Positions 10,107 to 35,912 of a DNA stretch of 40,251 nucleotides are shown piece by piece. The notes under the pieces were generated by a model. The model saw nothing but the letters and a program-made list of their open reading frames with translations. It made no database searches and was not told the DNA's origin. Origin of the DNA: Candidatus Methanophagales archaeon ANME-1-THS (GTDB taxonomy: Archaea; Halobacteriota; Syntropharchaeia; Alkanophagales; Methanospirareceae); NCBI GenBank assembly GCA_004212135.1, contig RXIE01000129.1:1-40251 (forward strand). The letters run 5' to 3'. The position numbers and the translations under genes are program-made. How positions within the stretch are numbered: the first letter of the stretch is position 1; every line of letters starts with the position of its first letter.

Positions 10107-10747
10107 AGGTCTTTGCATCCTGGAGTGGCGGTAAAGAAAGTTGTCTGGCATGCTATCGAGCGATGCTGAATGGTTTTGAGGTAGTGTATCTCCTCAATTT
10201 TGTAGACGAGGATGGAACGAGATCAAGATCGCATGGGATCCCGTCATATTTGTTGGATCTGCAGGCCGAGGCACTTGGAATACCGATTGTTCATGTACGG
10301 ACATCGTGGGATGAGTATGAACGGAAGATGAAGAACGCGGTTGAGGAGTTAAAGAGGGAGGGTATAAAAGGCGGTGTTTTTGGTACCGTGGATATCAGGG
10401 AGCACAGGGAATGGCATGAACGGGTGTGTAATGAACTGCAGATCGAGCCGGTCTTTCCTCTCTGGGGACGCAATCCTGAAGAGCTTCTGGTCGAATTCAT
10501 CGAAACGGGCTTTGAAGCGTATGTAATCGCCACGACGCTCGGAGAAGCGTGGCTCGGAAGAAAGATTGATCGAGCGTTTATTAATAATCTGAAGAAGCTC
10601 GAGATCCATCTCTGTGGCGAATCGGGTGAGTATCATACCTTCGTCACGGACGGTCCGTCCTTCAAGCGAGGCATCAGGATCACGCATGGGAAAAAGATCG
10701 TACGAGATGGTTCGTGGCTTCTGGAGATTGGGGTCGAATTATCATAA
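10103..10747 (+). CDS. dph6: Diphthine--ammonia ligase family PP-loop ATPase (Dph6-like)
   Basis: ATP-pyrophosphatase that would amidate diphthine on elongation factor 2, the last step of diphthamide formation. It shows the PP-loop SWSGGKES (6-13), a conserved LWGR (120-123) and the family's CGESGEYHTFVTDGP (171-185). The length of 214 residues fits the archaeal MJ0570-type family. The start ATG overlaps the grpE stop (ATGA). Bacterial-type relatives with undefined roles exist, but the archaeal setting favours diphthamide synthesis. Confidence 0.82.
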   Translation: MKVFASWSGGKESCLACYRAMLNGFEVVYLLNFVDEDGTRSRSHGIPSYLLDLQAEALGIPIVHVRTSWDEYERKMKNAVEELKREGIKGGVFGTVDIREHREWHERVCNELQIEPVFPLWGRNPEELLVEFIETGFEAYVIATTLGEAWLGRKIDRAFINNLKKLEIHLCGESGEYHTFVTDGPSFKRGIRITHGKKIVRDGSWLLEIGVELS

Positions 10748-18143: not shown

Positions 18144-19223
18144 TCACTCTGGCAGTTTTAATTCTTTGATATGCTCCTCTCTCTTCTTCTTGAACTTGAT
18201 GAGATAATCAATCTCGTCCATCACGACCTTTTCGCCAAATTCCGCAGTTCCCTTCTCTCTGATAAAAGCCATAACCTCCTTTGCATTCTCATTCCGCACA
18301 ATAATGGTTGAAAAGCCCGCTTCGCTTCCAACGCTCCCAACCGAGGCATCGCTTTGTACCGCAGTGAAGTCAGTACAGAAATCACAGCCCTTCGCCACTA
18401 ACCCGCGCTCCTCAAACTCCGCCATTTTAATCTTCCGCTTCTTCTCCGCGCCCGCCACCGTGACGTACATGCTGCCCTTACTGATGTTCGTCTTGAGTAT
18501 CTTCTCGATCTCAATACCCTTCTCGTCACGAAGGAACTTCATAAGATCGTTATAATGGAAATTTTCAGTGCAGAAGAGACCCACCACGAGCTTCACCTTC
18601 TCCTTGAATACCGGGAACTCCTGCTGCAGTTTCCGTATCCCTGAGATCATACAGGGCGTCCCCACAACGCCAACCCCTTTCTTCGTGAACCGAATAGCCT
18701 CCTTCAATGCGGGGAGAATACCTGCAAAAACATACTTCGTTCCACCAAGGGTTCCAACACCCACTTGTTCTGGGTATCGCACGTGGAAAATGCTCGTCTC
18801 CCATTTCTCATTCCGATCAACAAATAAACCCTGGTCAATCATCCCCATATCTATCGCGGATGCAATGAGTTCAGTGGCCATCGCACCATCCTGACCTTTG
18901 AACCGCTTTGATTTCGCAGCAACAATTTCGATATAGTTCCCTAAGCCACTCGGCGGTTCGTAAATGAAGCGCGGACAGACCCGCACACAGGCGCCGCAGT
19001 CAAAGCAGTTCTTCTCAAAATCAGGGAAACCCACGATATCCTCGTCGGTTACAATTAATCCGCTCGGGCAGATCGAGACGCAGGTCAAGCAGCGGCTGCA
19101 TAAGTTCGTATCGATCACGACCGCCTTGAGATTCTCGAAAAACAATTTATCCTTCAGCTTCTTCTCCGGGACTTTTACTTCCCATTTCGATTCGCCCAGC
19201 TCTTCTTCTGCGGGAGTTGCCAT
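18144..19223 (-). CDS. fqoF: F420H2 dehydrogenase subunit F (FqoF/FpoF, FrhB family)
   Basis: Input module that oxidises reduced F420 and passes electrons into the membrane complex. From the chosen ATG (19223) it has 359 residues. Two ferredoxin clusters: C42, C45, C48, C52 and C73, C76, C79, C83. The FrhB-type FAD and F420 domain follows, with cluster-type cysteines C191, C218, C280 and C283. An ATG at 19265 is in frame, but it lies inside fqoI. The 19223 ATG follows GAGGAAGT with good spacing and lies 5 nt after the fqoI stop. It is the last gene of the operon, as in Archaeoglobus. Confidence 0.92.
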   Translation of the reverse strand: MATPAEEELGESKWEVKVPEKKLKDKLFFENLKAVVIDTNLCSRCLTCVSICPSGLIVTDEDIVGFPDFEKNCFDCGACVRVCPRFIYEPPSGLGNYIEIVAAKSKRFKGQDGAMATELIASAIDMGMIDQGLFVDRNEKWETSIFHVRYPEQVGVGTLGGTKYVFAGILPALKEAIRFTKKGVGVVGTPCMISGIRKLQQEFPVFKEKVKLVVGLFCTENFHYNDLMKFLRDEKGIEIEKILKTNISKGSMYVTVAGAEKKRKIKMAEFEERGLVAKGCDFCTDFTAVQSDASVGSVGSEAGFSTIIVRNENAKEVMAFIREKGTAEFGEKVVMDEIDYLIKFKKKREEHIKELKLPE

Positions 19224-19228
19224 ATGTA

Positions 19229-19963
19229 TCACTTCCTCACCAGTCTTAATATTTGCATGGAGCATTCCTTAACGCATAAACCACATCCAGTGCACTTCTC
19301 AGCATCGATCGCCATCTTGACGATCAGCCTCTCCTCATCTTTTATCGAAGAAACCGCGCCACTTTCGCAGACCTTCTCGCAGACCTTGCACGCAATGCAA
19401 CTCGCTCGATCGACGCACTGGCTCACCATGGGAACACCCTGCGATGGTGCAATTTCCACAATAAGATTGTCTCTGCCTTTTGTCCGTTTCAACGAGAGAT
19501 CCTCGGTGTCTATGACATAGTCGACAAAGACCTTATCCTCACGAATGATCTCCGGTGGTTCAACCATCTCCTCGGTCAGTGTGAGCATCTCCTCCATGGT
19601 CCGGTATGCCACATCATGGATCTTTGTGGGCTTTAACGCGCCGCCCGGGCAGCTATCGACACAGAAATGGCAGAAGATGCATTTACCATAATCCAGGGTG
19701 GGGTAATACCGGTTGCTGGGTGCTTCCTTCATCCAGATCGCATTCGCCGGGCAGATGAACGAACATTGAAAACAACTGATACAGCGCTCAGGGTCAAAGA
19801 GAATATAGCCTCTGAAACAGTCCGGCCACCTCCTCCGTTCCCGCGGGTAATGGGTCGTTATGTTCAATGGCAGTGCTACTTGCTTTGCCGCGGTTGACAG
19901 AGCAGACAGGTGATACTTGAGTTTGTCTTGCAGATTGTATTCCGGTGTTCCAACTTTCTTCAT
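19229..19963 (-). CDS. fqoI: F420H2 dehydrogenase subunit I with four [4Fe-4S] motifs
   Basis: NuoI-type electron-transfer subunit between FqoF and the B/C/D module. 244 residues from the ATG at 19963, which overlaps the fqoH stop (ATGA) after an AGGAGT ribosome-binding site. The longer frame to 20029 lies within fqoH. The usual two clusters are C61, C64, C67, C71 and C95, C98, C101, C105. A linker of about 80 residues leads to two more ferredoxin motifs at C189, C192, C195, C199 and C224, C227, C230, C234. NuoI subunits normally carry only the first pair, so the C-terminal half is an added 2[4Fe-4S] ferredoxin domain. Confidence 0.9.
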   Translation of the reverse strand: MKKVGTPEYNLQDKLKYHLSALSTAAKQVALPLNITTHYPRERRRWPDCFRGYILFDPERCISCFQCSFICPANAIWMKEAPSNRYYPTLDYGKCIFCHFCVDSCPGGALKPTKIHDVAYRTMEEMLTLTEEMVEPPEIIREDKVFVDYVIDTEDLSLKRTKGRDNLIVEIAPSQGVPMVSQCVDRASCIACKVCEKVCESGAVSSIKDEERLIVKMAIDAEKCTGCGLCVKECSMQILRLVRK

Positions 19964-21123
19964 AGTACCACTCCTAAGACAATTGACCATGCGACGGCGA
20001 TGAGTCCTAAGGTAAGCATGGCGCCCCATCCAATTCTCAGGCCCTGGTCGAGTCGGTACCGCGGATACACGCCGCGGAGGTTAACCATGACCAGCAGAAT
20101 GATCAGGGTCTTTATCACGAACAAAATCGCATAATACAGGTCACCCAGAAGCGGAGTCACGTACGGAATCGCCGGGCCACTTCCCGCGCCGAGGAATAAC
20201 ATCGTCATGATCGCACTGAGCACATACATCTTCTCGTACGCCATCACATACGCAAGCCCGAATGCAATGCCCGAATACTCGATGAATGGTCCAAAGGCCA
20301 ATTCCTGGTCTGCTTCCGGGATCTCAAACGGTAACCGCGCGGTAGCCATCACCGCAGCGACGAAGAAGGTGAGCGCGGCGAGGGGATTGAGGATAATGCC
20401 CCAGTTCCACCAGGAGGTTTGTGCACTCACGACTCCAACGGTGTTCGAAGTTCCGTATAAGATGACCATTGCGAGGATTGCGATGATAAACGGAATCTCG
20501 TAGGCGAAATACATGAACGCCTCTCGTACCGTACCGATGAATGCAAATCGGTTGTTTGAGGACCAGCCGACACCGAGGATGAAGACCGGCATCAAGCTTA
20601 TCAGAGCGATCATTAGCTGGAGTGCATACTCGCTTTCTATAGGAACAAGTGTACGGCCGATGGTACCCGCATTGATAAACAGGAGCGGCAGCAGCACGGG
20701 GAGGAAATAGAGGAACGGGAACTGCAAGAAATACGGCTTGTGGGCCTCCTTATGGATGATTACCTCCTGACAGAGGAATCGGAGAGAATCGGCGAGTAAC
20801 TGGATGCTGCCTCTCGTGCGTGGCGCGATTTCACGAGGACCAACGCGCCACTGCATCCGTCCCACTAACTTCCGTTCAAGCCAGGGGAGAACGAGGAGCA
20901 TGGTGCCGAGTGTCCCGAAGCCCGGGATGATGAGTAAGATAAATATCGGTTTCCAGAGTATGAAGGCGATGAGGTACCGTATGATGGGAATACCGAGCAG
21001 GAATGCAACGATATTCCCGATCACAGGTATCTTGAGCACGAAATTGTAGATGATGGGATAGAGTAAGGGGATGTTCACCTGCTCCGCAATCATCAGGTTC
21101 ACGAGACCGCTTATATCAATCAT
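19960..21123 (-). CDS. fqoH: F420H2 dehydrogenase membrane subunit H (NuoH type)
   Basis: 387 residues. NuoH forms part of the quinone chamber at the junction between hydrophilic and membrane arms. Typical loops are seen: 'ERKLVGRMQWRVGPREIAPR', 'QLLADSLRFLCQE', 'ARLPFEIPEADQEL' and the late 'LRGVYPRYRLDQGLRIGWG'. About 60 residues with an extra hydrophobic segment precede the usual first transmembrane helix, making it longer than most NuoH (about 320-340). The start is 16 bp after the fqoBCD stop and the gene overlaps fqoI by four bases. Confidence 0.92.
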   Translation of the reverse strand: MIDISGLVNLMIAEQVNIPLLYPIIYNFVLKIPVIGNIVAFLLGIPIIRYLIAFILWKPIFILLIIPGFGTLGTMLLVLPWLERKLVGRMQWRVGPREIAPRTRGSIQLLADSLRFLCQEVIIHKEAHKPYFLQFPFLYFLPVLLPLLFINAGTIGRTLVPIESEYALQLMIALISLMPVFILGVGWSSNNRFAFIGTVREAFMYFAYEIPFIIAILAMVILYGTSNTVGVVSAQTSWWNWGIILNPLAALTFFVAAVMATARLPFEIPEADQELAFGPFIEYSGIAFGLAYVMAYEKMYVLSAIMTMLFLGAGSGPAIPYVTPLLGDLYYAILFVIKTLIILLVMVNLRGVYPRYRLDQGLRIGWGAMLTLGLIAVAWSIVLGVVL

Positions 21124-21138
21124 TGCTCGTCACCTCAC

Positions 21139-23466
21139 CTACCTATCCGCCTCCGGCGGGAAGTACCCGAAACTACCATAAACTGCCCAGAAGTCCGCAT
21201 ATCGTTCACCTTTGACCGCTTCCATGAATCCACGCAGGTTCATCCAGCAGGGGCTTATTACCCGCACACGGTACGGAACATTTGACTCGCCATCGCTGAT
21301 CAGCGAAAAGAGCAACGTGCCTCTCCCCGCTTCAGTAAGGCACGTCCATTCACCACGCGGCAGTACCAGGTTACCAAAAACGCGGAAGAAACTGCCCTTG
21401 ATATCACTCGCTGCCTCTTTATATTCGCCAAGGATCGCATCGCTCAAAATGGGGCCTTTGATACCTCGTACCGCATCCCCGGCCTGCTTTATGATCTTAA
21501 CGCTCTCCTTTATCTCTTCCAGCCTGCCCAGGAACCGTCCCAGACAATCGCCATCGTCGCCCGTCGTGACTTCCCAATCGAGCTTATCATACACCTCATA
21601 GGGCGACACTTTCCTGATATCATGGTTCACCCCGGATGCCCTCAGGAATGGTCCAACCATGCCGCACCGGATTGCATCCTCCTTCGTCAGCACCCCTACC
21701 CCCTTTGCCCGCGCCACGGTTACCGGGTTGGTCACGAAGATATCCTCGAACTTCTTCATCCGTTTATGGACTGCAAAGGTGATGTTATCAATCATTTTGA
21801 GCACATCGTCTGGAATGTCTCTCCGTATCCCACCAGGGACGACGAACGAAGGACCGCTTCTCGATCCCGTGATTCGCATCAGCGCTTCAATGATCATCTC
21901 ACGGATCGCCATGCAATACATGAACCCGGTCGTATGTCCAAAGAAGAGTGAGAAGATACCCGAATCGTAATAAAACGCTTCGATCCGCGAGAGTTCAGCC
22001 ATGATCGTCCGCAAATACTGTGCTCGTTCTGGAACTTCAATCCCGAGCGCCTTCTCGATCGTTCGCACATACCCCAGGTTCATATTCACCGGGTCATTGA
22101 TCGCCAGTCGCTCGAATAGCGGAATATTCTGGATGTATAGCTTATTCTCCGCGAGCTTCTCCATAGACCGATGCACAAATCCCGGTTCGGGGATCGCATC
22201 CACAATGACGTCGCCTTTTATTCTGAATGTCACCCGGAGATGCCCACTGCCCGCGTGATGAGGCCCTATGGGGACTACAATCTCGTCACTCTCGTATGCA
22301 TCTTTAATAAATTCTTCCCAGATCGGGACATAAAGATCCTTTGGCGGCTCGATGGGAACCATGAACTCAGGAGTCACATCCTTTTCAAACACGTATCGTT
22401 CCTCCGGGATCTTGAACTCTTTCCTCAAGGGGAGATCCGGTGTGTCGGGAGCAAGCAGGAACTTCTTGCCCATCCAGGTATTGCCCTCAAACCAGACCCC
22501 GAAGAACTCGTGCATTTCCCGTTCGCAATAATTCGCGCTCTCCCAGACCGAAGTAAGGCTTGGGATCTTCGGGTCTTTCATCCCGATCTCAGTGAAAATG
22601 GTGACGAGAACCGGCATCAGCGCCTCGACACTATAACTCGAAGCGGTATACTCCACAATAAACTTCCGCTCGTGGGGCACTTCGATCACATTCACGCTCT
22701 TCACGTGATCCAGTTGCATCTGATCCCGGAGTTTCCGGGCGACTTCCAACAGGTTTACCGGCGTGGTTCTGATCGCTATACGGTCCTTGCCGGTAATCGT
22801 TACGGATTTATAAAGCCCGTTAAGTTCTTTTTTGATTGTATCTGCCAATTCCTTCCCGAAATCCCAATCTACCTCCTGTTTAACATCCACTTTGATTGCC
22901 GGTGTGGGGGCATAGAGCTTGGGCGAGGTAGGCACCTTTCGCTCCTCCAGTTCCACGAACGGCAACTCCACCGTCTTAAATTCGATCGTCTTTCGGTCTA
23001 TGCCCATTATCTTATCTTGCAGCGCTCTCACACCTCGTAAAAGGGCTTCAGGAGTTATTGGACATCCCGGAACAAAGAAATCAACCGGAACGATATCAGA
23101 AGGATGGGTGATATTATAACTGTTCCAGAATATCCCGCCTCGTTCTCCACAGGCTCCTATCACGTTCACAAACTTCGGATCCGGCATCTGCCCATACACG
23201 AATTGCAACGCCCGTGCCATCTTCCTCGTTATCGTCCCCTCAATAATGATGAAATTCGATTGCCGCGAAATGCCCAGGTTTAACGTGATAGGAGCCTGTG
23301 GAGAACGAGGGCAGGCAAATGCATGAGCGAGCTCAACGCCGCAGCACGAGGTGATGAAGTGGCACGGCCATAAACTCCATTTCGCAGCCCATTTTTTAAA
23401 CGGTGCAAGCGGTCCTGATTCGAGGAATTGTATATGCGCGTTCTTATTTTCCATTTTTGTTCTCAT
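21139..23466 (-). CDS. fqoBCD: Fused F420H2 dehydrogenase subunit B-C-D
   Basis: One uninterrupted 775-residue frame carries three subunits of the hydrophilic arm. Residues about 20-160 are NuoB, with N2 cluster ligands C41, C42 (TSCCGVE), C106 (GACGE) and C135 (VPGCP). Residues about 195-360 are NuoC, with 'VWESANYCEREMHEFFGVWF' and 'LPLRKEF'. Residues about 390-775 are NuoD, with 'PIGPHHAGSGHLRV', 'DPVNMNLGYVRTIEKAL', 'RIEAFYYDSGIF' and the C-terminal 'VYGSFGYFPPEADR'. A proline- and lysine-rich linker (about 165-195) joins B to C. The ATG at 23466 follows GAGAGGTG closely; an ATG four codons later is possible. BC and CD fusions are known in other organisms. Confidence 0.92.
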   Translation of the reverse strand: MRTKMENKNAHIQFLESGPLAPFKKWAAKWSLWPCHFITSCCGVELAHAFACPRSPQAPITLNLGISRQSNFIIIEGTITRKMARALQFVYGQMPDPKFVNVIGACGERGGIFWNSYNITHPSDIVPVDFFVPGCPITPEALLRGVRALQDKIMGIDRKTIEFKTVELPFVELEERKVPTSPKLYAPTPAIKVDVKQEVDWDFGKELADTIKKELNGLYKSVTITGKDRIAIRTTPVNLLEVARKLRDQMQLDHVKSVNVIEVPHERKFIVEYTASSYSVEALMPVLVTIFTEIGMKDPKIPSLTSVWESANYCEREMHEFFGVWFEGNTWMGKKFLLAPDTPDLPLRKEFKIPEERYVFEKDVTPEFMVPIEPPKDLYVPIWEEFIKDAYESDEIVVPIGPHHAGSGHLRVTFRIKGDVIVDAIPEPGFVHRSMEKLAENKLYIQNIPLFERLAINDPVNMNLGYVRTIEKALGIEVPERAQYLRTIMAELSRIEAFYYDSGIFSLFFGHTTGFMYCMAIREMIIEALMRITGSRSGPSFVVPGGIRRDIPDDVLKMIDNITFAVHKRMKKFEDIFVTNPVTVARAKGVGVLTKEDAIRCGMVGPFLRASGVNHDIRKVSPYEVYDKLDWEVTTGDDGDCLGRFLGRLEEIKESVKIIKQAGDAVRGIKGPILSDAILGEYKEAASDIKGSFFRVFGNLVLPRGEWTCLTEAGRGTLLFSLISDGESNVPYRVRVISPCWMNLRGFMEAVKGERYADFWAVYGSFGYFPPEADR

Positions 23467-23508: not shown

Positions 23509-23865
23509 TTAGCCTTTTGACTTCGCCATATCGAGCGTTATCGTATAGCCCACATAGAGCGCGGGCAGGAGGAGCAGGAGTGAGAGCAGCAGGAGTACCA
23601 TGAAGCTCGAACTCGGGTACGCGGAGAAGAGGAGCAGGATGACCACAATTGGTTCCACAGCCATAAACAGGAACATAAACCCGAAATACTGCATGGGGAG
23701 TGTATATTTCGGGAATTTCATCGGTGGGTTCCCTGCTTCCCATCGCATCGTTTTTATCTCTGTCAGGTTATACCTCGGCAATACCCGTACGAGCAGGAGC
23801 AGAATCATATCTACCAGCACGCAAATAAGGACCAGAACACCGATTATTAACGCATTTTCTAGCAT
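23509..23865 (-). CDS. fqoA: F420H2 dehydrogenase membrane subunit A (NuoA type)
   Basis: 118 residues with three transmembrane segments (about 4-26, 58-80, 85-108). The conserved stretch between the first two is 'YNLTEIKTMRWEAGNPP'. The ATG at 23865 is chosen because GAGGAGG lies 7 nt upstream. A longer frame to 23892 would overlap fqoN and has no better site. NuoA lies at the hinge of the complex beside NuoH and NuoJ. Confidence 0.9.
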   Translation of the reverse strand: MLENALIIGVLVLICVLVDMILLLLVRVLPRYNLTEIKTMRWEAGNPPMKFPKYTLPMQYFGFMFLFMAVEPIVVILLLFSAYPSSSFMVLLLLSLLLLLPALYVGYTITLDMAKSKG

Positions 23866-23881
23866 TTTTCGTCCTCCTCGC

Positions 23882-25144
23882 TCATATCGCAATACTTATA
23901 GCCTGAGCAATGACCTCCATACTTCTAAAGAACCAGTCTGGCAGGAATGTAATTAAGGTTATGATTACGACGGCAACGCAGATGAAGTTGGTAAGATTCG
24001 CTTTCCAGCCAACCCCGAGTTCTCGTGCGAGCCGCAAATAATACGGAATGGATATTGCGGAATTCAGGACCATGAGCGCAACGAGCCAGAAATACTCAGC
24101 TTTGACCAGCGAGAAGAGAATGAAGAGCTTGCCCCAGAACCCGATGAGCGGTGGGAGACCGATGAACGAGAACGCAAGCAGGTACATCGTGAGTGAAAAA
24201 GCTCCTTCGCCCTTGATCGCATTGAAGAACCCAATCTTGCCCACCGCGTTTGCAAATAACATGAGCAGTGCTCCAGTCAACGCGAAGTAGAAGAATTCCG
24301 GCTTGATGATCACGACCGCGCAGGCTAACAAATAGCCCATGTTCGCCACGGTCGAGTAGGCGAGGATTCGTGCATGCTCTTTTGAGGTCAGTGCGCCTAT
24401 ATTACCGGTGAACATGGAGATCGCAGCAAGGACCGCGGTGAAGAGGGTTACCGAAACGGTCAGGGAGTTAGATGTGCTGATCAGTATCCGCAACGCGATG
24501 ACAAACGGCACGATCTTTGCGAGCGATGCGATGATGGACATCGGGATGGGATCGGCACTGGTAAAGACATCCGGAACCCACTCGTGTAACGGCGCGACGC
24601 CTACCTCAATGCTCAGTCCTAAGATGAGCATCACATAGCCGAGTATGTACAGCAGGCCATTAAATGCGTTTTTAGTATACGCTAAGGTAACCGCACCGAT
24701 TAAGAAGAGAACCGTAGCGAGTACCATGAAGGTGATATACTTGATACCCACCTCGACGTTTGTCCCCCCTTCTCGCACCATAACCAGGATGTAGGTTGGC
24801 ACGGAAACAAGGACGAACGCTGCGAGTATCAGAGCAAGGTTGTGTGTCGTAAAGATGTAGAGGGTTACCAGTGCCATCAATGCTACCAATCCGTAGTCCA
24901 CACCCTGAATCACGCTCTTGATCACTTTAAGCGAAACCAGGTTGAGGATACCGATGGCAAACACAAATGCGGTATAATAAATAAGAGCGGGTATGAGGAG
25001 TGTTACGGCTGCAGATGCCAGTATAAGCGCAGCGATCGCGCCGTAGAAGCCCAAATCGCGGTACTTAACGGAAAAAGCAGAGCAAAGCGTCAGGATTACT
25101 AAAGCACCGAGCAGCATCAGCACGGGCATTGAGAATTCGATCAT
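23882..25144 (-). CDS. fqoN: F420H2 dehydrogenase antiporter-like subunit N
   Basis: About 420 residues and some 13 membrane segments of the NuoN/Mrp antiporter-like family that moves protons. The half-channel signature 'EVGVAPLHEWVPDVFTSADP' and 'SLAKIVPFVIALRIL' with the central lysine are present, and 'ILAYSTVANMGYLLA' follows. The ATG at 25144 overlaps the fqoL stop (ATGA), with AGGAGG 9 nt upstream; an ATG two codons earlier (25150) has tighter spacing. Confidence 0.92.
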   Translation of the reverse strand: MIEFSMPVLMLLGALVILTLCSAFSVKYRDLGFYGAIAALILASAAVTLLIPALIYYTAFVFAIGILNLVSLKVIKSVIQGVDYGLVALMALVTLYIFTTHNLALILAAFVLVSVPTYILVMVREGGTNVEVGIKYITFMVLATVLFLIGAVTLAYTKNAFNGLLYILGYVMLILGLSIEVGVAPLHEWVPDVFTSADPIPMSIIASLAKIVPFVIALRILISTSNSLTVSVTLFTAVLAAISMFTGNIGALTSKEHARILAYSTVANMGYLLACAVVIIKPEFFYFALTGALLMLFANAVGKIGFFNAIKGEGAFSLTMYLLAFSFIGLPPLIGFWGKLFILFSLVKAEYFWLVALMVLNSAISIPYYLRLARELGVGWKANLTNFICVAVVIITLITFLPDWFFRSMEVIAQAISIAI

Positions 25145-27096
25145 AGCCATACGCCTCCTATCGCGACTACTACGAGCAGGATCATGACGAGCCCGAGCAC
25201 AATATTGATGTATCGGCTGAGATAGCCTGTTTGAATGCCTCGGATTCGCTTCGAGATCGTGCCGAATAAGCCGGGTATCGTCACGGTATTAAAGAATCCG
25301 TCAATTCCACGATTTCCATAGTCCTGAACCAGATGAGAGACAAAGAAACCTATCTTCGGAATGATAAAATCATTCATAAAGGGCAGATACATACGGTCGC
25401 CGAAGAACGCGCCGAGCTTGTTTAGCGCATGTATCTGGGGTCGGTAGAGTGCAACCATATACGCGAGTAAGGCCAGTATTCCAACGCCAAAGGAGATGGT
25501 GATCGTGCCGTGCTTCAGAACGGATCCCGCGGCAACGAATTCATGGCCTTCTTCACTTGTGAAGATGATATAGAGCAAGACGAAGAGCACCGAGACCATC
25601 AGAGAGTACCCCACCTTCATCAATCCCCCGCCATGCGTATGCTCGTGGTGTGGTTTCTCGCCTTTAATAAAATTCAAAGCAAGGAACTTCGCCATTATCC
25701 CGGAATAGACTACCGAGGTGAGCACGAGCAGGATGAGCGGCAAATAGCCCACCTCGTGGAAGAGATGCTCCATAACCTCGTCCATCGCCGACTTCACCCA
25801 GTATGCGGTAAGCGGCGGTATGCCAACGAGGAAGGTGGTCGCGACGATCGTAACGATAAAAGCAGGGACCATCTTCTTGCCAAACTCGAGACCACCGCTT
25901 AAGAACCTGCTATGCGTGGCATGGATCAAATGACCACTGACGAGGAATAAACTCGCTTTCGCAAATGCATGGACTGCCATGTACCAGAACGCAACGAGCA
26001 CGGCGAAATTCATGTGCATTTCGCCAACCTCAACATCAACCCAGTAGGATGCGGCGGCTGCTGCGAACATCAGACCGATACTGGACATCGTGGATGCTGC
26101 GAGCAGAACCTTCCGTTCGAGCATACCAGAGCCAGAGAGCGCACCATACAATCCGGAAAGCAGTCCAATAAAGAGCACAAGGAGATACACATACTCGAGC
26201 CCATGCACGCCGTGCAATGTCCATGGCGCAATATACCACGTGAGTTTGATGAATACAAACGCCCCCGCAGCCACCATGGTCGCACTGTGCAGGAGTGCAC
26301 TCACCGTGGTTGGGCCGGTCATTGCGGTCATGAGCCACTCACTGAAGGGTACCTGAGCAGACTTGGTGAAGAGCCCCATGAGCAGACAGAGGAGCAGAAT
26401 TATCGTGCCGCCCGCACCAAGTGTTTCAAAGAGCGTGCCCCACTCGATCTCCGAGATATTGAGCGTTGGTGATAATGCCCATATCGCAGCGAGTGCTAAG
26501 AACATAGGAACATCGCCGAACCGTATGGTGGAGATCGCGCGCCATCCGCCGAAGCTTGGTGGCCAGCTCAGCTCGAGCGGTCCCACCTTCCTGCCCGCTT
26601 TACCGACATAGCTAATATCATTGTCGTCCCTGAACCAGTGCCCGATCAATCCCCACGAAGCGGCGCCCAGTCCCTCCCAGCCGACAAAGAGCAGGAATAA
26701 ATTGTCGCTATACACGACGAGGAGCATCGATGCGGTGAAGAGGTTGAAGAAGAACCAGTACCAGCTCGGCCGGTAATCTCCCTTCATGTAGTCCAAGCCG
26801 TAAATAGCAATAAAGAAGGCTATAAGTGCGGTAATAACGCCCATATACCTGCTCAGATAGTCAGTAATAAGGACGATGTTTATGCCGAATTCAGGAATCC
26901 AGGGGTAACTGAACTGCTGGTTCTCGGGTAGAACGAAGAGGATATACAGGCTCATGATCACTGAGACGAAGATCCCGAAGACCGAGAGATAGGGTAGCTT
27001 CTCGGTCCATGCTTTACTCTTGTAGGCGAGTACAATGGGAACACTGCTCAGCACAGGTGACAGGAACAGTAACAGGAATATGAGCCACTCGTTCAT
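25141..27096 (-). CDS. fqoL: F420H2 dehydrogenase antiporter-like subunit L
   Basis: 651 residues, the largest antiporter-like subunit, as usual for NuoL. The glutamate of the first half-channel is in 'FVGWEGLGAASW' and the lysine motif in 'GLFTKSAQVPFSEWLMTAM'. 'GPTTVSALLHSATMVAAG' and a C-terminal extension with the lateral-helix region and a final membrane anchor follow. It also has a His-rich cytoplasmic or external loop (KGEKPHHEHTHGGG). The start overlaps the fqoM stop (ATGA) with GGGAGGT 9 nt upstream. Confidence 0.92.
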   Translation of the reverse strand: MNEWLIFLLLFLSPVLSSVPIVLAYKSKAWTEKLPYLSVFGIFVSVIMSLYILFVLPENQQFSYPWIPEFGINIVLITDYLSRYMGVITALIAFFIAIYGLDYMKGDYRPSWYWFFFNLFTASMLLVVYSDNLFLLFVGWEGLGAASWGLIGHWFRDDNDISYVGKAGRKVGPLELSWPPSFGGWRAISTIRFGDVPMFLALAAIWALSPTLNISEIEWGTLFETLGAGGTIILLLCLLMGLFTKSAQVPFSEWLMTAMTGPTTVSALLHSATMVAAGAFVFIKLTWYIAPWTLHGVHGLEYVYLLVLFIGLLSGLYGALSGSGMLERKVLLAASTMSSIGLMFAAAAASYWVDVEVGEMHMNFAVLVAFWYMAVHAFAKASLFLVSGHLIHATHSRFLSGGLEFGKKMVPAFIVTIVATTFLVGIPPLTAYWVKSAMDEVMEHLFHEVGYLPLILLVLTSVVYSGIMAKFLALNFIKGEKPHHEHTHGGGLMKVGYSLMVSVLFVLLYIIFTSEEGHEFVAAGSVLKHGTITISFGVGILALLAYMVALYRPQIHALNKLGAFFGDRMYLPFMNDFIIPKIGFFVSHLVQDYGNRGIDGFFNTVTIPGLFGTISKRIRGIQTGYLSRYINIVLGLVMILLVVVAIGGVWL

Positions 27097-28547
27097 GGTA
27101 CTATACCTCCCATACCCATCAATGGCCAGATCACCGATTTAAGCCCGGGAATCAATGCGGTCGAGAGCGGCGGGAATACCAGCAAGACTGAGGTGATACC
27201 GATTAGAAAGAGTGGTACGTAGAGGTATCTACTTATCTCCTTTCGTGTGGTATCCTTGGGCTTGCCATAGAATACCTTCCGTATGGTGTAGAATCCATAC
27301 CACACTGAGAGGATGAACATGAAGATAACCGCCAGGAGGATTGCTAAACTCCCGGTAGAAACGCCGAACGTTTCCACCACACCACGCAATATGAAGAATT
27401 CACCGAGCATGCCAACCGTTAAGATCCCGCCGAGGTTCAGAAATCCGACCACCGCAGCATTTGAGATCGCCGGTATGGAATCGTGCAAGCCGCCCATCTG
27501 CCGAACATCACGAAGACCATGATGCACGGCGATGATCCCGCCCGCGCTCGAAAACAGGATTGACTTACCGAAGGCGTGCGACATGTACTGGATCACCACA
27601 CCGACCAGCCCAAACGGACCGAGACAGAGTGCAGCGAGGATATAACCCATCTGTGAGACGGTGGAGTATGCTAACAGCCGTTTGAAATCTGTCTGTTTGA
27701 AGACCGAGAACCCGGCATAAATGCTTGAAAAGAGCGCGTACCCAAAGATGTAGCTGCGATAGGTCACGATGAATGAGTAATCGATGAGTGCGATTCGCAG
27801 CAGAACATATCCAGCCAGACCAACGGTTAATGGGCTCAGCAGTGCACTTAATGGTGTTGGAGCTTCTGCATGCGCCCAGGGAAGCCATACATGGGGTCCT
27901 AACACGGGGAGCTCGATGACCATGCCCACGAAGATGAAGGGCCAGGCATATCGACCCACCGTCTCGATATATTTGAGCGCGAGTGTGTCATTGTTAATAC
28001 CGATGATGAGGAAGCCAGCGAGCGTAAGAACACCGGCTACTAAGCTCCAGATCAGGTACAATTGACCAACCCATCTCCGGTTTCCATAGCCATAGAAGTA
28101 GATGAGGAGGAACGCGGTGATCAGTGCGATCTCGAGGAAAATGTACAGGAGGATGAGATTGCCACTGTACACGAGCCACAACATCGAAGCGGCATAGAGA
28201 TCATACAGGAAGATATATTTCCTGAACTCGCTCTCAACACTGAGCTCCATCTCCACAAATCGGTGCTCCATATAGGGGAGCGCAAAAAGACCGACCATCG
28301 CAGAGACGATACAAATCGTCAGTCCAAATGCATGCGATATAAAGTCAGCACTGAGATAGAGCTCGCCTATTGGTGCTGAAAAGGTCATTAAATGGACCTC
28401 CGCGCAGCCGTAAAAGAGACACGAGAGGATGGCAAAGAACGGCAGCAGGAAGAACGACACGGTAAGATGGGTCGCGGCCTTTGGTTTCAAAAGTGGTGCT
28501 AAAACCGCTGCGAGGAGCGGCAAAATCAGAAAGTAGAGCAGCATCAT
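27093..28547 (-). CDS. fqoM: F420H2 dehydrogenase antiporter-like subunit M
   Basis: 484 residues with about 14 membrane segments of the NuoM type. Key motifs are 'YIFLEIALITAFLLIYF' with the proton-path glutamate, 'VWLPWAHAEAPTPLSALLSPL' and 'RLLAYSTVSQMGYILAAL'. Two adjacent ATG codons (28547 and 28544) can start it. Both follow a near-perfect GGAGGTGATC ribosome-binding site and overlap the fqoK stop. Confidence 0.92.
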   Translation of the reverse strand: MMLLYFLILPLLAAVLAPLLKPKAATHLTVSFFLLPFFAILSCLFYGCAEVHLMTFSAPIGELYLSADFISHAFGLTICIVSAMVGLFALPYMEHRFVEMELSVESEFRKYIFLYDLYAASMLWLVYSGNLILLYIFLEIALITAFLLIYFYGYGNRRWVGQLYLIWSLVAGVLTLAGFLIIGINNDTLALKYIETVGRYAWPFIFVGMVIELPVLGPHVWLPWAHAEAPTPLSALLSPLTVGLAGYVLLRIALIDYSFIVTYRSYIFGYALFSSIYAGFSVFKQTDFKRLLAYSTVSQMGYILAALCLGPFGLVGVVIQYMSHAFGKSILFSSAGGIIAVHHGLRDVRQMGGLHDSIPAISNAAVVGFLNLGGILTVGMLGEFFILRGVVETFGVSTGSLAILLAVIFMFILSVWYGFYTIRKVFYGKPKDTTRKEISRYLYVPLFLIGITSVLLVFPPLSTALIPGLKSVIWPLMGMGGIVP

Positions 28548-28864
28548 ACTTGATCACCTCCTATAGTAATCACCGCGGTGTGAATATCCTTTTTCTGCCG
28601 GTCAAGTATCACAATTGCCGATATCAAGATTAACAGCTCGCCACTGCTCGCGAAGATCGTGATCACCGCAATACCGAATGCGGTATGAGCAGCAACTGAG
28701 AAGAGCGGAATCAATGCCATAAACACCGCACCAAACATCATCTCCAGTGATATAAGGAGCCGGATCACATCTTTACTCGAGATCGCTGTGAGGTAGCCCA
28801 CGAATAAGATTGCAAAGGACGCGGCATAGAGCACTGATATACTCGCGACATCAAGAGCAGCCAT
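28544..28864 (-). CDS. fqoK: F420H2 dehydrogenase membrane subunit K (NuoK type)
   Basis: 106 residues with three transmembrane segments. The family's paired glutamates are in 'LISLEMMFGAVF' (second segment) and 'ASSGELLILISAIVILD' (third). The ATG immediately follows the fqoJ stop (TGAATG), so translation is coupled. Confidence 0.92.
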   Translation of the reverse strand: MAALDVASISVLYAASFAILFVGYLTAISSKDVIRLLISLEMMFGAVFMALIPLFSVAAHTAFGIAVITIFASSGELLILISAIVILDRQKKDIHTAVITIGGDQV

Positions 28865-29347
28865 TCAACTCCTCCCTCCTATCCCCATCTTTAATACGGA
28901 CAATAACAAGAGAATAACGAGCGCTATCAGCAGTATAACGACTAAAAAGTATTCGGTCGTGGATAGAAAATTCATCAGTTCAAATTGGATCTCGCCGGGC
29001 GATGCTGCCGGCGGATTGAAGATCGGGTAACTGTAAATGGAGAAGCCGATAATGAACGCAGCGAGAGCCACTGGCGCAGCCCAGAATACCGACACCTGCC
29101 TTACCGGTTCAGATCGATAGGTTGCTGCAAGCGCTACGGTGACAATACCAATCGCACCGACAAAGATAAACACGATCAATACGAAGACTGGTTGAAGATT
29201 GAAGAGAGCGTAAACCGCTGCAACAAAAATTAAGGTCCCGGACATGTAGAGCGAGGAGTAGAAATTATCTTTGCTCACGAGAACCCCGAGCGAGAATAAG
29301 ACGGCGATGCCTGCAAGCGCTGACAGCAACAGCACATCTGCACTCAT
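28865..29347 (-). CDS. fqoJ: F420H2 dehydrogenase membrane subunit J (NuoJ type)
   Basis: 160 residues and five transmembrane segments. The NuoJ region 'YALFNLQPVFVLIVFIFVGAIGIVTVA' includes the third helix with its pi-bulge-like glycines. First gene of the operon; its ATG (29347) lies just after a palindrome and about 25 nt after a T/A-rich promoter element. Confidence 0.9.
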   Translation of the reverse strand: MSADVLLLSALAGIAVLFSLGVLVSKDNFYSSLYMSGTLIFVAAVYALFNLQPVFVLIVFIFVGAIGIVTVALAATYRSEPVRQVSVFWAAPVALAAFIIGFSIYSYPIFNPPAASPGEIQFELMNFLSTTEYFLVVILLIALVILLLLSVLKMGIGGRS

Positions 29348-29519: not shown

Positions 29520-30524
29520 TTATATAAAGGTATTCGAGACGTGGATTTTTATTCGTTCCATAGAAAACTGGGCGATGAACTGGAGTTTCTGCTTCGCCTC
29601 CGAATCTTCGAGTCCCGCAATACAATTCCGCGCTGTTCGTACAAACTCTTCAGCGAGCTGAAGTGCGTACTCGATTGAACCTGCGTCGACCAAAATGCTC
29701 CTCACCCGGTTGATGTCAAAGATGCCAGGGTCTCGTTCTCGAGACAGAATCGCTTTTATATACTCCTTTTCAGATTCGTTTGAATGATGTAACGCGTGGA
29801 TGACGAGCAATGTCTGCTCACCATTTTTAATGTCCAATCCCACAGGCTTGCCAGTATTCGCCGGGTCACCGCAGATATCCAGGATATCATCTTGAATCTG
29901 GAACGCAACCCCTAGGTTCTTACCATAGGTACGCAGATTCTCGATTTCCACTTCGTTTCCGCCTCCGAGTACCGCACCCGCTTCCGCGCTCGCCATAAAA
30001 GTCGCAGCCGTCTTCAGTTCAGCGACTTCCATGTACGAATGCAGGTTCGCCTCTTGCAAGGTTCGTAACGTGAACTCCAGGTATTCCCCCATCGCAATAT
30101 CCGCCACCGCATTCGAGACCAGGCTCACGACTTCCGGGACACCGCAGCGTGCAAGCATCTCGCACGAGAGCCCGAATAAAAGATCACCGATAATAATCGC
30201 CTTCTTTTCACCGTATCTCGCGGGATTAGACGGATTTTTTCGGCGAATGTCGTTCTCATCGATGATATCATCATGTACCAGAGACGCATTGTGAAGCAGT
30301 TCAATCGCTATGGCGGTCGATAGCGCTTTTTCACGTGAACCGCCCACGGCTTCTGCTGAAAGAAGGCATATGATAGGTCTCAGTCGCTTGCCGCCGGTCT
30401 CCTGTATGTAGGTCAGCGCGTCGCGTAAGATCTCATGGTTGCATTCGAGCAATTTTTGCTCGATGACCTCACCTAACTTCTGATTGAAATACAGTACCTC
30501 CTCGTGGAATAGCCGCTCCTTCAT
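29520..30524 (-). CDS. idsA: Polyprenyl (geranylgeranyl-type) diphosphate synthase
   Basis: 334 residues; condenses isopentenyl diphosphate with allylic primers to make the C20 or longer chains of archaeal lipids. First aspartate motif DDIID (85-89), second DDILD (212-216), 'GGKRLRP' (44-50) and the KTAA lysine (171-174) are present. The residues five and four before the first aspartate motif are small (Ala80, Ser81), permitting chains of at least C20. The exact product length cannot be read. AAGGAG precedes the ATG and a TTATAAAAG box (complement of 30552-30560) lies about 30 bp upstream. Confidence 0.9.
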   Translation of the reverse strand: MKERLFHEEVLYFNQKLGEVIEQKLLECNHEILRDALTYIQETGGKRLRPIICLLSAEAVGGSREKALSTAIAIELLHNASLVHDDIIDENDIRRKNPSNPARYGEKKAIIIGDLLFGLSCEMLARCGVPEVVSLVSNAVADIAMGEYLEFTLRTLQEANLHSYMEVAELKTAATFMASAEAGAVLGGGNEVEIENLRTYGKNLGVAFQIQDDILDICGDPANTGKPVGLDIKNGEQTLLVIHALHHSNESEKEYIKAILSRERDPGIFDINRVRSILVDAGSIEYALQLAEEFVRTARNCIAGLEDSEAKQKLQFIAQFSMERIKIHVSNTFI

Positions 30525-34424: not shown

Positions 34425-35912
34425 ATGGTATGTATGAACCGGAAAACGAGATCAGTATGTCCGCGGTGCCTCGAGGTTATTGATGCGGACGTGTATGAAG
34501 AGGGCGGTAAAATACTGATAAGGAAGAGATGTGAGGAGCACGGCGAATTTGATGATGTCTACTGGTCGGATGCTGACCTTTATAAGAAATTTGCGAAGTG
34601 GCAGTATAGAGGTACTGCGGGTATCAAACTTACTGAGAGCGATAAGGGCTGCTTTTTCGATTGCGGACTCTGTCCCGCGCATAAGAGCTCGACCTTGCTC
34701 GCCATTATAGACCTCACGAACCGGTGTAACCAGCGCTGTCCCACCTGTTTTGCAAATGCTGCGGTCACCGGTTATCTGTACGAGCCGACGGTGGAGCAGC
34801 TTGAGGAGATGATGAAACTGCTCAGGAGCGAAGTGCCGCCATGTCCAGCGGTACAGTTTGCGGGCGGTGAGCCGACCATGCGAAACGATTTCGTGGAGAT
34901 TGTTCGAATGGCACGCACGCTTGGCTTCCCTCATGTGCAGGTCGCGACGAATGGGATGGTAATGGCACGGAGCGTAGCCTTCTGTCATGACTTGAAAGAG
35001 GCCGGCTTGCATACGGTGTATCTCCAATTTGACGGCATGACTGAAGAACCCTACAAGCAATTGAGGGGCTATTCAGCCTTAAACACGAAGTTAAAGGCGA
35101 TAGAGAACTGTCGGAGAGGTGGGATCAAGAGTATCGTGCTCGTTCCCACGCTCATGAAAGGGGTGAACGACGACCAGATCGGTAATATGGTCCGATTTGC
35201 AGCGAGCAATCTGGACGTTATCAAGGGTCTGAATGCACAACCTATTGCGTTTGAGGGGCGAGTAGACGAGTCAATAAGGAAAAAAGGGCGAATAACCATT
35301 CCGGATTTCATCCATCTCCTGGAAGAGCAGACTGATGGCGAGATACCGAAAGAGAGTTTTTATCCCGTGCCGTTCGTCATCCCGGTCTCTCATTTCGTTG
35401 AGGCGTGGAAGAAGGTCCCACAGATCGAATTCACGGTGCATCCACATTGCGGCGCCGCAACGTATCTCTTTGTCGAAAACGGGAGGTTCATACCCATAAC
35501 GGACTTTATTGATGTTGAGGGTTTCATAGAATTCACCAGGAGGGCCGCGGAGGAGATGAACCGGTCGAAGGTCGGCAAGCTGAAAGCAATCGCCGGGCTT
35601 ATAGCCGCGTTACGGAAATTTATTGACAAGGAGCGGGCGCCTGAGGGTATCGATTCGTTAACGCTCCTGGCAAATATTCTGGGAATAGGAACTCGCGATT
35701 CTCTTGCGGATTTTCATCGTAAAACGCTTTTTATCGGTGTGATGCACTTCCAGGATCCATATAACTTTGATTTGGAACGAGTTAAGAGCTGCGGCATCCA
35801 TTATGCCACGCCGGACCTTCGTATAATCCCATTCTGTTCTTACAACGCGTTTCACCGACCGTTAGTCGAGAAAGCGTTCTCCACACCGCTCAATAAATTT
35901 CGTTCGGACTGA
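34425..35912 (+). CDS. tes: Radical SAM protein of the tetraether lipid synthase (Tes) type
   Basis: 495 residues. The radical SAM cluster motif is CNQRCPTC (C101, C105, C108), followed by the SAM-binding FAGGEPT (145-151). Upstream are extra cysteines for further metal sites: C12, C15 and C36, and the cluster GCFFDCGLC (C76, C80, C83). The C-terminal 'GIHYATPDLRIIPFCSYN' carries one more. This layout is that of the MJ0619/MA_1486 family, in which Tes joins two archaeol lipids by sp3-sp3 carbon coupling into membrane-spanning tetraethers (GDGT). The organism therefore probably makes GDGT lipids. Related radical SAM methylases remain an alternative. Confidence 0.8.
   Translation: MVCMNRKTRSVCPRCLEVIDADVYEEGGKILIRKRCEEHGEFDDVYWSDADLYKKFAKWQYRGTAGIKLTESDKGCFFDCGLCPAHKSSTLLAIIDLTNRCNQRCPTCFANAAVTGYLYEPTVEQLEEMMKLLRSEVPPCPAVQFAGGEPTMRNDFVEIVRMARTLGFPHVQVATNGMVMARSVAFCHDLKEAGLHTVYLQFDGMTEEPYKQLRGYSALNTKLKAIENCRRGGIKSIVLVPTLMKGVNDDQIGNMVRFAASNLDVIKGLNAQPIAFEGRVDESIRKKGRITIPDFIHLLEEQTDGEIPKESFYPVPFVIPVSHFVEAWKKVPQIEFTVHPHCGAATYLFVENGRFIPITDFIDVEGFIEFTRRAAEEMNRSKVGKLKAIAGLIAALRKFIDKERAPEGIDSLTLLANILGIGTRDSLADFHRKTLFIGVMHFQDPYNFDLERVKSCGIHYATPDLRIIPFCSYNAFHRPLVEKAFSTPLNKFRSD

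Follow-up and report, generated by a model that had tools for sequence, protein, structure and literature searches.

Single-chain fusion of subunits B, C and D in the F420H2:quinone oxidoreductase of an ANME-1 archaeon and the divergent quinone site of its lineage

Fusions among the connecting subunits of complex I are known from archaea and bacteria. In the available part of PMC11237513, a survey from 2024, archaeal BC fusions were reported in 47 assemblies (cluster 482), ten of which were also fused to D, and the architecture of these fqoBC-D fusions is the same as that of the protein studied here; that part of the paper holds no analysis of the junctions, the history or the quinone site (Q-site). 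In bacteria, NuoBCD was named in a proteomic study of Geobacter sulfurreducens (PMC7894505), and NCBIfam has a model for the B/C/D arrangement. The Fqo complex of ANME-1 was previously grouped with that of Archaeoglobus, with quinone as its predicted partner, and is considered an important point of entry for F420H2 at the membrane, which gives it a bearing on energy conservation in the anaerobic oxidation of methane (PMC9012536). The first-pass annotation of the present locus considered a B-C-D fusion in an F420H2 dehydrogenase to be not commonly described, which does not hold in view of these three sources. The fusion architecture is already known and the protein is a further member. We consider it very probable that FqoBCD naturally unites the three core connecting subunits of the ANME-1 F420H2:menaquinone oxidoreductase in one chain, with the history, the working and the rebuilt quinone site that are put forward below.

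The fused frame and its operon

The window, i.e., the whole stretch of DNA that was analysed, comprises 40,251 nucleotides of a contig of Candidatus Methanophagales archaeon ANME-1-THS, whose genome is 86% complete in 181 contigs. The fqoBCD gene (subunits B, C and D of F420H2:quinone oxidoreductase), which was assigned using Pfam, NCBIfam and the loci of relatives, occupies positions 21139-23466 of the minus strand as a single frame of 775 codons with an ATG start and zero internal stops; the first-pass annotation gave the uninterrupted frame of 775 residues correctly and left its strand unstated. Pfam placed Oxidored_q6 at residues 68-149, Complex1_30kDa at 234-355 and Complex1_49kDa at 510-775, and thus the B, C and D domains lie within one open frame. 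The B (NuoB/PSST-like) domain, which was delimited using Pfam and NCBIfam, covers residues 20-155 (23002-23409, minus strand) and has the N2 cysteines C41, C42, C106 and C135, which were invariant across 33 fused relatives. It is followed on the same strand by the B-C linker (residues 156-215; 22822-23001), the length of which differs in-frame between relatives, the C (NuoC/30 kDa-like) domain (residues 216-352; 22411-22821; Pfam), the C-D junction (residues 353-392; 22291-22410), which was recognised by comparison with Archaeoglobus and by codon analysis, and the D (NuoD/49 kDa-like) domain (residues 393-775; 21142-22290), which was aligned to Thermus Nqo4.

Because the window copy holds a 29-nt inverted patch in its B domain, a relative that is 86% identical to it (L003) was chosen for modelling. 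An AlphaFold run with 33 fused rows had a pLDDT of 58.6 and was redone using a 79-row alignment, which gave a pLDDT of 86 and a pTM of 0.88. The top PDB matches of the second model were the NuoCD chains of E. coli (TM 0.84 of the target, about 610 columns). The predicted fold was shown to be confident, with C and D arranged in the model as in E. coli NuoCD.

The gene lies in an operon of ten genes that runs 5' to 3' on the minus strand from 29347 down to 18144 in the order J-K-M-L-N-A-BCD-H-I-F. Upstream of the fusion are fqoJ (NuoJ; 28865-29347; weak matches below the cut-off), fqoK (NuoK; 28544-28864; a Pfam match slightly below the cut-off), fqoM (NuoM; 27093-28547), fqoL (NuoL; 25141-27096), fqoN (NuoN; 23882-25150) and fqoA (NuoA; 23509-23892), and downstream are fqoH (NuoH; 19960-21123), fqoI (NuoI; 19229-20029; ORF list and Pfam), which has an extra C-terminal pair of [4Fe-4S] motifs, and fqoF (18144-19265), an F420H2-oxidising subunit of the FpoF/FrhB-like type that has a ferredoxin-like pair of its own; M, L, N, A, H and F were assigned using both Pfam and NCBIfam. 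The match of FqoF to FrhB_FdhB_C (E 3.9e-40) was accompanied by FpoF-like matches. The operon thus holds the F420H2-oxidising subunit and the complex I core subunits A-D and H-N, with J and K recognised by weak matches; NuoEFG are absent from these ten genes. In the tree, the complex clustered with Archaeoglobus Fqo and not with the methanophenazine Fpo (branch support 100). The initial reading of the frame, as B, C and D fused in a complex I of the F420H2-dehydrogenase type, is borne out.

By analogy with its family, electrons would pass from F420H2 to FqoF (a flavin and two clusters), then to FqoI (four cluster motifs) and on to N2 in the B part, from which a quinone bound between B and D would be reduced and the membrane arm of H, N, M and L driven. 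Adjoining the first gene of the operon on its upstream side is a polyprenyl synthetase (29520-30524), which could provide isoprenoid or quinone tails, and farther along the window there is a radical SAM protein whose N-terminus bears a zinc ribbon of the HMPTM type (34425-35912).

Authenticity and history of the fusion

The survey consisted of a phylum sample and of loci that were read in detail. Full-length, single-frame Fqo BCD was found in 40 genomes of the class, 36 of which belong to the same family, two more to the order and two more to the class, while the remaining Fqo copies of the class stop at contig edges or went undetected; none was split. The relatives with the same single frame were mostly 61-87% identical to the window protein; the named ones at 81-86% identity are labelled mostly as Methanophagales, Methanosarcinales or Methanomicrobia, and a Candidatus Alkanophaga relative stands at 61%. 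These labels agree with a place in ANME-1. A codon analysis of eleven close copies gave dN/dS ratios of 0.051 for B, 0.116 for the B-C linker, 0.088 for C, 0.098 for the C-D linker and 0.060 for D, which are rough values, as dS was near or above 1 and synonymous change almost saturated. Judged by these ratios, both linkers were shown to evolve like translated protein, under apparent purifying selection.

These findings bear on two other explanations of the frame. If B, C and D were separate genes and the continuous frame were an assembly or frame error, one might point to the fragmented state of the genome and to the anomalous 29-nt patch in the same gene; however, the identical single frame recurs in the 40 copies from separate genomes, selection acts on both linkers, and the patch lies within B, away from the junctions, and leaves length and frame unchanged. 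We give this explanation practically no weight, and a chance frame or an assembly fusion is ruled out by the full-length copies together with the selection on the linkers. The second explanation accepts the fused DNA frame and has D also, or mainly, translated from an internal start at M369 (about 22362), which would yield two proteins. M369 does lie near the position where the separate D of Archaeoglobus starts, but a plausible ribosome-binding site was looked for upstream of it and no suitably spaced Shine-Dalgarno-like sequence was found; moreover, the methionine is unconserved, and many fused relatives have none there, which makes an internal start very unlikely. Separate genes in close relatives, which the first-pass annotation had named as the finding that would speak against a fusion, were looked for, and the entire class was found to be fused instead. 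On the sequences compared, the fusion is genuine and common to the whole class, and no assembly error.

The patch itself (23282-23310, minus strand, over residues 53-62) was detected by a repeat search and the alignment of relatives. It is a perfect reverse complement of positions 23138-23166 on the same strand, 115 nt apart, which encode NVIGACGERG around the N2 Cys106. As a result, residues 53-60 read PRSPQAPI, while the compared relatives have GYDGERLG, a near-invariant motif with several columns that are at least 90% conserved. The claim that the motifs of the protein are complete is thus right for the four N2 cysteines and wrong for this part of B. A local double frameshift was considered and rejected, as the motif does not appear in the other frames and what stands there is an inverted copy. 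The patch probably accounts for the Pfam match in the B domain being short and starting only at residue 68. It is either a local template switch in the organism or an amplification or assembly chimera, and in both cases it stands outside the design of the family. That it is a true mutation fixed in the strain by a replication template switch is the less likely of the two, although it has a real chance: the in-frame, equal-length swap with CACGTT common to one edge is what short inverted template switches leave behind, and the 40-kb window has no second close inverted repeat as long as this one. On the other hand, the overwritten motif is nearly invariant and belongs to a core subunit, the patch was not found in the relatives checked, and amplification chimeras produce an identical pattern.

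The gene arrangements differ between groups. B, C and D are separate in the Methanosarcina-like f8, B stands apart from a fused CD in f23, BC apart from D in f10 and f33, and all three are fused in Syntropharchaeia; in two further families (loci L070 and L071) B is separate from a long, CD-sized D frame. We take f10 to be the Archaeoglobaceae, including A. fulgidus, A. profundus, A. veneficus and Ferroglobus. Most of its members have BC and D, with the BC stop adjoining or overlapping the D start, and in four of its loci (L073-L076) BC and D are in-frame with one stop separating them. The fused C-D junction is equivalent to the last part of Archaeoglobus BC followed by the first part of Archaeoglobus D, and apart from the fusion, the gene order of the window is that of an A. 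fulgidus-like locus (L085). The earlier statement that BC is fused in Archaeoglobus agrees with these loci and with what is available of PMC11237513. One genus of the family (g23; G046 and G109), which we presume to be A. profundus-like, also has BCD, but the sequence at its junction is another one. The tree requires two changes to BCD; a single origin was not rejected by the AU test (p = 0.19). We favour the view that D was joined twice independently, in Syntropharchaeia and in this genus. The first step would have been the fusion of B and C in an ancestor shared by the Fqo complexes of Archaeoglobi and those of Syntropharchaeia; D may then have been added in Syntropharchaeia through loss of the stop separating BC from D, with an apparent repeat of the joining in the one Archaeoglobaceae genus. 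The fusion marks the lineage and would illustrate a stepwise route from B, C and D through BC and D to BCD by lost stops between neighbouring genes. Loci of Chlorobi and Bacteroidetes, which the span of their matches had suggested to be triple fusions, were found on inspection to have separate genes.

Further differences between loci were recorded. Two Syntropharchaeia (L068 and L069; genomes G040 and G042) have another complex I as well as the fused Fqo; in it, B, C and D are separate and the Q-site is of the canonical THG/Tyr type. The second C-terminal [4Fe-4S] pair of FqoI was present in nearly all of the Syntropharchaeia loci checked and in most Archaeoglobaceae (loci including L062, L078, L075-L077, L089, L090 and L085); in genus g23 the extra pair is on the N-terminus of FqoF rather than on FqoI, and the A. 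veneficus-like group is without it. In L085, the two iron-sulphur pairs of FqoI lie in different frames (about 10150-10460), which points to either a frameshift or a long-standing error in the sequence. In L058 (G011), the 5.5 kb downstream of the fused BCD showed neither an FqoI nor an FqoF frame, in which this locus differs from nearly all of the other members checked.

Subunits B, C and D are present in complex I at 1:1:1. The suggestion that the fusion fixes the stoichiometry of the module accordingly loses most of its force, as the fusion adds little to this ratio. It probably mainly tethers parts that are already together, and may aid co-translational assembly or be nearly neutral. Because the parts assemble 1:1:1 already, and because archaea and bacteria are both known to have such fusions, the fusion settles little.

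The quinone site

The D domain was aligned to Thermus Nqo4 using HMMER, in which the alignment was ungapped over Y87 and D139, and using MAFFT. The canonical residues H38, Y87 and D139 are all missing from the Fqo clade: the His38 column (Thermus numbering) is deleted in 21 of the 21 Fqo rows, with the local sequence GPxHxGSGH[LM]R, the Tyr87 position is Ile in all 21, and the Asp139 position is Phe in 20 and Met in one. Asp401, which is invariant in the other groups aligned, is Gly in the Fqo clade. In the window protein, V40 of Thermus corresponds to H409, Y87 to I456, H89 to D458, D139 to F508, A142 to H511 and D401 to G767, with H38 deleted. At neighbouring positions, the clade has the new invariant residues H409, D458, Y500, D501, H511 and Y768 (numbered as in the window protein), which are absent or rare elsewhere. 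The earlier remark that the fused module holds half of the quinone pocket presumed a canonical pocket, which this lineage lacks. We found no description of this divergence in the open-access literature. In canonical complex I, H38 and Y87 are the ligands of the quinone headgroup; Y87 was described as essential and H38 as paired to D139, with H38 and Y87 as the putative proton donors to quinone (PMC7434922).

The loss of H38 and the replacement of Y87 by Ile and of D139 by Phe throughout the clade could mean an acceptor other than quinone, such as a methanophenazine-like carrier, or direct transfer, and the ANME-1 carrier cannot be told from genomes alone (PMC5244752). Nevertheless, the A. fulgidus-like genome, which we presume to be matched correctly, has the same Q-site residues as the rest of the clade. 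A. fulgidus was reported to be an organism with menaquinone, and its Fqo probably to pass electrons to the quinone pool (PMC3949148). Futalosine-pathway genes were present in G001 and G003, two genomes of the same genus as the host, and in those Archaeoglobaceae that were tested (PF02621; MqnC above the cut-off), which aligns with the menaquinone (futalosine) genes reported in ANME-1 (PMC9012536), and the methanophenazine-type Fpo retains Tyr87. Genes of the MqnA/D type were not found in the host genome, at 86% completeness, or in the Alkanophagales genome G037, and futalosine-pathway genes were not found in two Fpo-type genomes. Taken together, a non-quinone acceptor seems improbable, and we infer that quinone is the electron acceptor of ANME-1 Fqo. 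The clade probably reduces menaquinone at a rebuilt site without His38, Tyr87 and Asp139. We lean, by a small degree, towards the broader proposal that the whole Fqo lineage (Archaeoglobi, ANME-1 and their kin) reduces menaquinone, that H409, D458, Y500, D501 and H511 take over proton donation, and that the His/Tyr donor model is not universal.

A leading model of complex I pumping relies on the protonation of quinone by His38 and Tyr87. A large natural clade that has a reported link to menaquinone and is without both residues and the paired Asp offers a direct test of whether coupling depends on these residues or can be solved in several ways, of which they are one. The divergence of the Q-site is more surprising than the fusion and more worth pursuing.

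Comparison with known systems

Bacterial NuoBCD (NCBIfam NF009808/PRK13292), which Geobacter sulfurreducens has, likewise carries three subunits per chain in an identical order, but it belongs to a different lineage with NADH-type modules, whereas the operon in the window has FqoF. Against the NF009808 model, the window protein scored 398 bits and other fused relatives 408-438 bits, all well short of the curated cut-off of 1156. The bacterial fusion is presumably separate in origin. In the NuoCD of E. coli and Aquifex, the placement of C and D is like that in the predicted fold of the window family, while B is separate and the Q-site canonical. The Methanosarcina-type Fpo is also an F420H2 dehydrogenase type of complex I, but its B, C and D are separate (L065, L066 and L096), and it retains Tyr87 and has Pro at the His38 position. 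Archaeoglobus Fqo shares the J-K-M-L-N-A-B-C-D-H-I-F order, the homologous B-C fusion, the unusual Q-site residues and, in most members, the extra iron-sulphur pair of FqoI; it differs in that D is mostly a separate adjacent or overlapping gene, except in the A. profundus-like genus, which has BCD.
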